Shown here one piece after another: positions 23,562 to 26,406 of a stretch of 64,000 nt of DNA. This DNA is from an uncultured Pelagibacteraceae bacterium (GTDB taxonomy: Bacteria > Pseudomonadota > Alphaproteobacteria > Pelagibacterales > Pelagibacteraceae): NCBI GenBank assembly GCA_902525935.1, contig CABZJA010000001.1, forward strand, positions 1 to 64,000, written 5' to 3'. Within the stretch, counting starts at the first letter, position 1; every line of letters begins with the position of its first letter. A program made the translations under genes and the position numbers. The notes beneath the pieces are model-generated. The model was given only the letters and a program-made list of their open reading frames with translations, did no database searches and was not told the origin of the DNA.

Positions 23562-24682
23562 AAAAAGTTGCAATTGTTGGAGCTGGTATATCTGGTTTGT
23601 ATCTTGCAAATGAATTAAACAAAAATACTAAAATAGACTATAAAATCTTTGAAAAAAAAGATTACCTTAATTTAAATGAAGGTTATGGCATTCAACTTTC
23701 AGTTAATAGTATTAATTTGTTGAATAAAATCGGATTTAAAAATATTTCAGCATCAGATGTTTATTATCCAACAAAAGTTAATTTTTTCCAGGCTAATAAT
23801 ATTAAAAAGATTTGTGAAATTGATTTAAAGCAATTCAACAATGTAAACGACCGTTACACAACACTTAAAAGATCAACATTAATAAAGTTTTTAATTGGCA
23901 AAATCCCTGAAGAAAAAATTCAATTTAAAGCCGATATTCAAAATATAGAATATAATGAAAAAATAAAAATTTCTTGGAATAATAAGAATGAAAGTTTCGA
24001 TTATATCGTAATTGCAGATGGTGTTTTTTCAAAATTAAAATCTCAAATATCTAATAATCATTTAAACCCAATTTTTAATGGGAACATTGCTTTAAGGGCG
24101 AATTTAAAACAACATGAAAAAGATAATATTTCTGTATATATGGGGTCAAATTTTCATTATGTAACTTATCCTGTAAATCAAAAACTTGAATACAATTTCG
24201 TTGCTATAATCAAAAAGAAGCTAACTACTAACGAAATTGAAGATAAAAACATTCTTAATTCAGAAACATTTATAAAATCTCTAAAAGACCTTATTTCAAA
24301 AAATTCTATTATAAATTTGGAAAATTTAGTTAACATGAAGTGTTTTCCTGTGTTTGTGAGCAATGGATTACCCACATTAAAATATCAAAATACTTTTTTG
24401 AGTGGAGATGCTTTATTTGCTTTTCCACCTTCTTTTGCACAAGGTGCTTCTCAAAGTATTGAAACAGCAAATGGTATTTTAGAAAATATTACAAATTCAA
24501 ATAATATTTATAAAGATAAGATAAAAAAAATATTACTTGTAAATAAAAGATCTAAACTAAATCATTTTGCCTTCCACTTAACTAATCCAATAATAATATT
24601 AATTAGAAATTTTGTTTTGAAATTTTTATCAAAAAATAAAAAATTTCTAGAGAGCTATCTTGGAAAAATTTATAGAAATTAA
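23558..24682 (+). CDS. FAD-dependent monooxygenase (UbiH/salicylate hydroxylase-like)
   Basis: VAIVGAGISGLYLANEL, YIVIADGVFSKLK, LSGDALFAFPPSFAQGASQSIETA. Confidence 0.88.
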   Translation: MKKVAIVGAGISGLYLANELNKNTKIDYKIFEKKDYLNLNEGYGIQLSVNSINLLNKIGFKNISASDVYYPTKVNFFQANNIKKICEIDLKQFNNVNDRYTTLKRSTLIKFLIGKIPEEKIQFKADIQNIEYNEKIKISWNNKNESFDYIVIADGVFSKLKSQISNNHLNPIFNGNIALRANLKQHEKDNISVYMGSNFHYVTYPVNQKLEYNFVAIIKKKLTTNEIEDKNILNSETFIKSLKDLISKNSIINLENLVNMKCFPVFVSNGLPTLKYQNTFLSGDALFAFPPSFAQGASQSIETANGILENITNSNNIYKDKIKKILLVNKRSKLNHFAFHLTNPIIILIRNFVLKFLSKNKKFLESYLGKIYRN

Positions 24683-25752
24683 TTAGTTGGCCTTAGTCTT
24701 TGCCTCAAATCATCAATTGGTTTGAATGAGTTACCTGATTTATAATACCAAAAAGTCCAACCATTACAGCTTTCAGCACCTAATATTTGTGCAGCAACTT
24801 TATGTATTGATCCTTCTGATTTCCGATATTTTATACTACCATCAATCATAATTTTAGCATTGATTTGCTTTTTTTGATCAAAAATTTCAGTTCCAGGTTT
24901 AATAATTCCTAATTCAACTAAAGATCCAAATGGAACTCTTGGTTTAGATCTATTACTTTTTATAGTATCTAAATATTCATCTTCTATAATTTTTGTATTT
25001 TTAATTCTTTTACTTGCAGCTTCAAAATAGTTTTTTTCTTTTTCTACCCCAAAATAATTTCTACCTAACTTTTTGGAAACTACAGCAGTAGTTCCTGTAC
25101 CAAGAAATGGGTCCAATATTAAATCACCTTTATTAGAGGATGCTAATATAATTCTGTGCAATAAAGACTCTGGCTTTTGTGTTGAGTGAACTTTATTTCC
25201 ATTATTTTTAAGTCTTTCTTTTCCATTACATATAGGTAAATTCCATGTAGATCTCATCTGTAGATCATCGTTTAAACATTTAAGTGATTGATAATTAAAA
25301 GTATATTTTGAGCCTTCACTTTTTGATGCCCATATAAGTGTTTCGTGCGCATTCGTAAAACGTGTTCCTCTAAAATTTGGCATAGGGTTATTTTTGTTCC
25401 AAATCACATCATTTAGTATCCAAAAACCTAAATCTTGCATTTTTGAACCAACTCTAAAAATATTATGATAACTTCCTATGACCCATATAGATCCATCTTT
25501 TTTTAAAATTCTTTTACATTCTTTAAGCCATTGAACTGAAAACTCATCGTAACTTTTAAAACTATCAAATTTATCCCATGCATCGTCTACAGCATCGACT
25601 TTAGATCTATCAGGTCGACTTAATTCTTTTTTCAGTTGAAGGTTGTAAGGTGGATCTGCAAATACCAGATCAAAACTTTCAGCAGGAATTTTTTTTAATT
25701 CCTTAATACTATCTCCATTAATAATTTTATTTTTTATGTCTGAAATGATCAT
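24679..25752 (-). CDS. ccrM: CcrM-type adenine DNA methyltransferase (predicted GANTC)
   Basis: FADPPYNLQL (DPPY), DPFLGTGTTAVVSKKLGRNYFGVE and a C-terminal RAMA-like domain (GSIKYRKSEGSIHKVAAQILGAESCNGWTFWYY). Confidence 0.95.
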   Translation of the reverse strand: MIISDIKNKIINGDSIKELKKIPAESFDLVFADPPYNLQLKKELSRPDRSKVDAVDDAWDKFDSFKSYDEFSVQWLKECKRILKKDGSIWVIGSYHNIFRVGSKMQDLGFWILNDVIWNKNNPMPNFRGTRFTNAHETLIWASKSEGSKYTFNYQSLKCLNDDLQMRSTWNLPICNGKERLKNNGNKVHSTQKPESLLHRIILASSNKGDLILDPFLGTGTTAVVSKKLGRNYFGVEKEKNYFEAASKRIKNTKIIEDEYLDTIKSNRSKPRVPFGSLVELGIIKPGTEIFDQKKQINAKIMIDGSIKYRKSEGSIHKVAAQILGAESCNGWTFWYYKSGNSFKPIDDLRQRLRPTN

Positions 25753-25765
25753 TTTATATTTTTGA

Positions 25766-25794
25766 ATTAGACTCCAGTCAGGTGTCTACGTCAA
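25766..25794 (-). promoter_or_regulatory. Predicted sigma70 promoter of ccrM with GANTC site overlapping the -10
   Basis: Minus strand: TTGACG (25794-25789), 17-nt spacer, TCTAAT (25771-25766). GAGTC/GACTC occupies 25770-25774. ccrM ATG at 25752. Confidence 0.55.
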
Positions 25795-25830
25795 CCTGTG
25801 ATTGAATTTATTGATTGATAATTGTTATGA

Positions 25831-26406
25831 TTATTTTTTAAGACTCAACATCTTGTGTATTGGTCTGAAGGTTTTTCTATGAAATCTAGTCACTCCAAAT
25901 TTTTTAATAGCATTAATATGATCCTTAGTTCCATAACCTGCATTATTGTCCCAGCCGTATTTTTTAAAAGAAAAAGACATCTTTTTCATTAGCTTATCTC
26001 TTTCGACTTTAGCAATAATCGATGCGGCTGAAATTTCAGGAATTTTTTCATCACCTTTTACAATAGTTTTAATAACGTAATTTTTTAAGTCTGGTGGTTT
26101 ATTACCGTCTATTAAAACTTTTTTAGGTTTCAATTTGAGTTTCTTAATTGCTCTTTTCATTGAAAGTAGGCTAGCATTTAAAATATTAATTTTTTCAATT
26201 TCCTTTATTGATGCAGAACCTAACGCCCAAAGTGAATTTTTTTTTATATATTTAGCTAAAGTTTCCCTCTGAATTTTGTTAAGTTTTTTTGAATCTTTAA
26301 GAATTTTTCTATTAATTTCTTTATTTAATATAACAGCAGCTGCATAAACTGGTCCTACAAGGCTTCCTCTTCCAACCTCATCAACCCCAGCAATAATTTT
26401 TTTCAT
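25831..26406 (-). CDS. rnhB: Ribonuclease HII
   Basis: IAGVDEVGRGSLVGPVYAAAVIL, DSKKLNKIQRE, GYGTKDHINAIKKFGVTRFHRKTF. Confidence 0.97.
   Translation of the reverse strand: MKKIIAGVDEVGRGSLVGPVYAAAVILNKEINRKILKDSKKLNKIQRETLAKYIKKNSLWALGSASIKEIEKINILNASLLSMKRAIKKLKLKPKKVLIDGNKPPDLKNYVIKTIVKGDEKIPEISAASIIAKVERDKLMKKMSFSFKKYGWDNNAGYGTKDHINAIKKFGVTRFHRKTFRPIHKMLSLKK

Follow-up and report, generated by a model that had tools for sequence, protein, structure and literature searches.

Results

The ccrM locus and its predicted promoter

The window, a 64-kb stretch of SAR11 (Pelagibacteraceae) DNA, encodes on its minus strand the GANTC adenine methyltransferase gene ccrM, which is the same gene as babIM. 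The ccrM product matches PF01555 and a RAMA-type C-terminal domain (PF18755), and aligns over residues 9-354 with C. crescentus CcrM (6pbd; E 4e-139), indicative of the full-length homology by which a CcrM-type methyltransferase is recognised. Its score of 580 bits against NF050803 (CcrM) is under the curated cut-off of 830, and the name of this model suggests that it was built on Caulobacter-like sequences. Methylation of GANTC sites in Pelagibacter has been reported by long-read sequencing (PMC9516812). The order rnhB-ccrM is kept in all 70 same-genus loci compared, and in the window the two genes are separated by a gap of 78 bp; on the minus strand, the sequence leading into ccrM is TTCAATCACAGGTTGACGTAGACACCTGACTGGAGTCTAATTCAAAAATATAAAATG. 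In seven of seven complete genomes of the genus (G012, G082, G103, G105, G111, G113, G115), ccrM and dnaA lie about 264-281 kb apart by subtraction of positions, a distance that is relevant if the timing of hemimethylation matters. The features of the locus are as follows, with offsets (+ or -) counted from the -35 box.

24679..25752, minus strand: ccrM (babIM), GANTC adenine methyltransferase, 357 aa (profile and homology matches)
25749..25817, minus strand: match to Rfam RF01784 (bablM sRNA), 41.9 bits against a gathering score of 38; read here as the ccrM promoter
25759, minus strand: predicted transcription start in the 17-bp spacer register, from position alone; 7 nt before the ATG
25766..25771, minus strand: predicted -10 box TCTAAT (5/6 match, 17-bp spacer); columns +23 to +28 change 0-1 times among 112 relatives
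25770..25774, minus strand: CcrM site 2 (GAGTC), overlapping the start of the -10; GANTC at +20 in 111/112
25782..25786, minus strand: position of CcrM site 1, lost in the window (GACAC; GACTC in close relatives); at +8/+9 in 100/112 relatives
25789..25794, minus strand: predicted -35 box TTGACG; TTGAC invariant in 112 same-genus promoters
25791..25805, minus strand: imperfect dyad TCAATC-N3-GGTTGA over the -35 (TTCAATC at 25800-25806), a possible operator; 0-2 changes per column
25831..26406, minus strand: rnhB (RNase HII), upstream neighbour of ccrM; NF000595 above cut-off
25842..25846, minus strand: extra GANTC in the last rnhB codons (coding sequence), -52 from the -35; position common to 68/112

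A preliminary description of this DNA had proposed a promoter of the form TTGACG-N17-TCTAAT upstream of ccrM, and both boxes and their coordinates prove correct on the minus strand. The exact string occurs once in the 1.06-Mb assembly, and sites matching 5/6 in each box number 29 on both strands of the 64 kb, so that only about 0.02 would be expected in the rnhB-ccrM gap on the ccrM strand. TCTAAT departs from the consensus only at -11, where it lacks the A that is the -10 base most important for melting, and the -10 register is consequently not certain. Counted from the first T of the -35, the ATG is 42 nt downstream, and transcription is thereby predicted to begin 7 nt ahead of it. As also described, a single GANTC (GAGTC, 25770-25774) straddles the junction of spacer and -10, and it is the sole GANTC in the 78-bp gap. 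Such sites had been expected every ~360 bp by chance, a figure that does not hold, as the window has only one per 810 bp (79 sites in 64 kb). The window count is about half that predicted from base composition. An inverted repeat, CAGGT-N10-ACCTG (25779-25798), is present as stated but is not conserved and was rejected as an element; ACCTG exists because the window genome reads GACACC where close relatives read GACTCC, so the repeat arose in this genome alone, through loss of site 1.

Conservation within the Pelagibacter genus

We aligned 112 distinct promoters of the genus by anchoring on TTGAC, and used a ccrM tree of the 112 sequences with a total length of 9.7 substitutions per site to count changes. 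The preliminary description had held that it would be refuted if close relatives did not keep the GANTC in place, and its interpretation passes this test: a GANTC stands at exactly +20 in 111 of the 112, the exception being L067 (TAGTC). A second GANTC, at +8 or +9, is present in 100 of the 112; about 12 losses of this site are inferred on the tree, one of them in the window's own genome, and amplification error in single-cell genomes may lie behind some of them. Core promoter columns show 0-1 parsimony changes, compared with a mean of 20 and a minimum of 10 at 46 four-fold-degenerate ccrM sites, and TTGAC, GAGTCTAAT and most of TTCAATC show 0-2 changes. TTGAC itself precedes ccrM at every one of the 212 SAR11-order and near loci inspected. 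The distance from its first T to the ATG is 41-44 nt in 112/112 relatives, a conserved spacing that supports the earlier suggestion that the mRNA may be near-leaderless. At site 1 the middle base is, in this genus, no more variable than its flanks (6 changes against 4-11), and evidence for selection on GANTC itself therefore comes from the deeper comparisons below.

The double-GANTC pattern is almost confined to ccrM in the genomes of the genus. A genome-wide SAR11 regulon with this layout was considered and rejected, as only one other weak match (L158) was found in the window's assembly, with no ORF found reading from it. A separate observation concerns the element TTCAATC-N3-RGTTGAC (25791-25806, minus strand), which does not vary within the Pelagibacter genus and occurs almost only at ccrM. 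Of 61 genus genomes, 47 contain the pattern TCAATCNNNRGTTGAC, in nearly all cases as a single copy at ccrM, and the reversed pattern has no matches. The dyad is absent in the other genera compared and is a possible operator specific to this genus, judging by its conservation.

Other SAR11 genera and the class Alphaproteobacteria

Elsewhere in the order the sites vary in position and number. One family (f2) combines GATTC at +8 with GAATC at +19 and in most cases adds a further GANTC at -14; one genus (g5) has GANTC at +9 and +25; another (g2) and most sequences of g4 lack site 2, and g3 keeps site 1 only, one or both sites being lost in these three genera. Across SAR11 genera TTGAC is, apart from a few cases, 35-46 nt from the start codon.

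Of 88 non-SAR11 alphaproteobacterial genomes drawn from across the class, mostly one per family, 35 have the motif TTGAC-N2-5-GANTC-N4-7-GANTC upstream of ccrM, against 0.015 expected from shuffles; in this strict form it is missing from the other 53. The layout proposed for the window alone in the preliminary description, with the enzyme's target on its own core promoter, is found again in sister genera and in roughly 40% of the non-SAR11 genomes sampled, with other middle bases. Site 2 is at +19 in most non-SAR11 families with the motif, and a third GANTC near -15 is often present. The same register emerges when GANTC is not required: among 89 TTGAC occurrences upstream of ccrM, the counts of GANTC are 35 at +19, 41 at +8 to +10 and 17 at -15, compared with a mean of 2.4 per offset, and ten control five-mers are near zero at these peak offsets. 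At two or three positions the middle base of GANTC differs between lineages while GA-TC stays. Following the second site in the 35 non-SAR11 promoters, the next base is A in 33 and a T stands five bases past the site end in 32, which fits a predicted -10 of the form CANNNT at 17-bp spacing; with such a -10, site 2 would again touch its first base outside SAR11. In 17 of these promoters the first T of TTGAC is followed 33-39 nt later by an in-frame ATG or GTG, with a clear peak at 35-38 nt, the place where the transcription start is expected. A leaderless or near-leaderless ccrM mRNA is backed, although not proven, by these spacings.

Among the non-SAR11 genomes, a CtrA-like box (<=1 mismatch) accompanies one of the 35 double-motif promoters versus nine of 16 lacking TTGAC, so double motif and CtrA-like box are seldom found together, a tendency to which base composition may contribute. 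A second recurring double-GANTC site of promoter-like form, TTGAC-N3-5-GAATC-N6-8-GTGATTC, was observed in no fewer than ten non-SAR11 families (loci L401-L405, L407-L410, L415), where it immediately precedes a small division gene of DivIC/FtsB type. The preliminary description was correct but understated: it did not extend to a second or third GANTC, the dyad, the spread of the layout through the class or the Rfam entry.

GcrA and CtrA in SAR11

GcrA is encoded in 82 of 97 genomes of the order; none was found in the window's own assembly, which is 77% complete. SAR11 GcrA aligns with that of C. crescentus (E 2.5e-24) over both the DNA-binding and the sigma-binding parts. Unexpectedly, Sulfolobus acidocaldarius, used as a control genome, also gives a match to the GcrA family model above the cut-off. 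In Caulobacter, GcrA contacts sigma2 and requires m6A (PMC7403470, PMC3667746), and a GANTC between the -10 and -35 is a mark of promoters that are switched on at 40-60 min (PMC4287350). The predicted ccrM promoter has a GANTC within a sigma70 core, one of the features expected of a GcrA-dependent methylated promoter. Only one of 35 SAR11 gcrA promoters contains GANTC, and the feature is therefore not general to cell-cycle genes. The gcrA upstream regions (L072-L077, L316-L337) were seen to carry repeated AT-rich palindromes, such as ACTATATATAGT, that by eye are NrdR box-like.

Pelagibacter has been reported to lack ctrA (PMC2877005). None of the four OmpR-type DNA-binding proteins of one complete SAR11 genome scores as CtrA, the best being PhoB; the best score against the CtrA model, which is of Rhodobacter type, is 133 bits versus a cut-off of 350 and far below the PhoB score of the same protein. 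No conserved copy of the CtrA box TTAA-N7-TTAA was found in the SAR11 promoter alignments, which thus do not have the mark of a CtrA-activated promoter.

Discussion

Probable promoter DNA rather than a structured RNA

The stretch upstream of ccrM corresponds to RF01784, which also matches four relatives (L011, L032, L046, L063) above the gathering score. This family, bablM, was described in 2009 as a candidate from P. ubique and marine metagenomes lying between rnhB and babIM, placed among candidates with little covariation and only weakly supported by its authors (PMC2704228). A structured RNA in the 5' leader that controls ccrM post-transcriptionally would account for these matches, for the two stems that can be drawn and for folds slightly better than shuffles in two of five single sequences. 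The energies are nevertheless ordinary, with z-scores from -1.95 up to 0.86. Stem 1, which pairs TTCAAT with GGTTGA and overlaps the -35, is invariant in the genus, broken in the family f2 and absent from related genera that keep the promoter. Stem 2 is the pairing of the two GANTC sites, which can form because each GANTC is a palindrome, as could any two such sites. No convincing compensatory base changes were found for either stem in the 112 sequences, and pairs flanking the GANTC letters in the 35 non-SAR11 promoters form at the frequency predicted by independence. Furthermore, the stretch ends at the ATG and holds the -35 and -10, so that most of it lies upstream of the predicted transcription start. 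We consider an RNA controlling ccrM very improbable; from these comparisons, RF01784 appears to record promoter DNA.

A probable methylation-sensed ccrM promoter

That the locus holds a real, conserved promoter with selected CcrM sites is close to certain, and the fixed positions of these sites point to an ancient self-sensing switch. Replication hemimethylates the sites and CcrM restores them, so the promoter can report a state controlled by CcrM, and it is likely to be methylation-sensitive. The best explanation, which we hold to be reasonably probable, is that ccrM is autoregulated through sensed methylation, with GcrA and sigma70 as the probable reader, activity probably in the hemimethylated state and a leaderless or near-leaderless mRNA. 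One CcrM site lies over the start of the predicted -10 and usually one 11-12 bp upstream in the spacer, joined in many lineages by a third upstream of the -35. Passage of the replication fork would leave these sites hemimethylated; sigma70 polymerase, probably with GcrA on sigma domain 2 and the methylated sites, would then transcribe ccrM, and the new CcrM would restore full methylation and turn the promoter down. Sigma domain 2 and GcrA act at the -10 edge and spacer, where the CcrM target adenines sit here (PMC7403470). In SAR11 the -10 is weak, having no A at -11, and this would be in keeping with a need for a melting activator such as GcrA. We lean slightly towards GcrA itself as the reader.

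As to the sign of the loop, we favour negative feedback (on when hemimethylated) over activation by methylation, although at roughly even odds overall. Methylated sites that recruit GcrA and switch ccrM on would form a positive feedback loop, as suggested by the activation of methylated promoters by GcrA in Caulobacter (PMC3667746) and by the Caulobacter ftsZ and mipZ promoters, which GANTC activates and which are more active hemimethylated than unmethylated (PMC3708114). A cell that had lost methylation would, however, be unable to restart ccrM under such a loop, and two published cases are lower when fully methylated: Caulobacter ccrM is transcribed from hemimethylated DNA only (PMC2217572), and the Agrobacterium gcrA promoter is less active when methylated, in E. 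coli as well (PMC11514494). This specific positive circuit is accordingly rated unlikely. It is less probable still that another DNA-binding protein, or sigma70 on its own account, is the reason for the conservation next to the -10, with GANTC incidental. All of GAGTCTAAT is fixed in the genus, middle base included, and TTCAATC-N3-RGTTGAC is a second conserved genus element with no known binder, but across other lineages GA-TC is kept at two or three positions with differing middle bases, and control five-mers give no comparable peak. Recent common ancestry of the related same-genus sequences is refuted as the cause of conservation, with practically no weight left to it, by the contrast with four-fold sites (at least 10 changes each versus 0-1 in core columns, on a tree of 9.7 substitutions per site) and by recurrence of the layout across families.

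Relation to known systems and significance

A GANTC-regulated sigma70 promoter is a known kind. The C. crescentus ccrM promoter serves the same gene, has two nearby GANTC sites and is reported to be gated by methylation state (PMC2217572, PMC10073500), but is CtrA-activated whereas SAR11 lacks CtrA; by published description its sites lie beside a CtrA-type promoter rather than inside the -35/-10 core at fixed spacing. The Caulobacter GcrA/CcrM-dependent mipZ, ftsZ and ctrA P1 promoters similarly have GANTC inside or beside a sigma70 core (PMC4287350, PMC3708114, PMC3667746), although these reports centre on single sites at other genes, in contrast to two or three in fixed register at the methylase gene. 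The A. tumefaciens gcrA promoter also has several GANTC sites and responds to methylation (PMC11514494), but belongs to another gene and has no fixed core-promoter register described. RF01784 is the identical DNA stretch, described as a candidate RNA where we find a fit to promoter DNA. In the literature searched, which did not cover subscription journals, we found neither the fixed two- or three-site layout at ccrM nor a re-reading of RF01784 as a promoter; SAR11 start-site mapping was likewise not found in the literature searched.

More tentatively, and with some doubt, TTGAC followed by two or three fixed-register GANTC sites ending at the -10 and a leaderless start may be the ancestral form of ccrM control in Alphaproteobacteria, CtrA control being a later replacement in some lineages. 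Methylation at the -10 edge, with or without GcrA, would then set promoter melting, such that the methylase would sense its own product on its own promoter. The re-reading of RF01784 corrects an RNA database entry and indicates that palindromic methylation sites can mimic an RNA hairpin. The self-marked ccrM promoter is a candidate ancestral circuit across much of the Alphaproteobacteria. In SAR11, where CtrA is missing, a self-methylation circuit would replace the CtrA control known in Caulobacter, and the fixed self-marks give a concrete, testable answer to how ccrM may be controlled in its absence.
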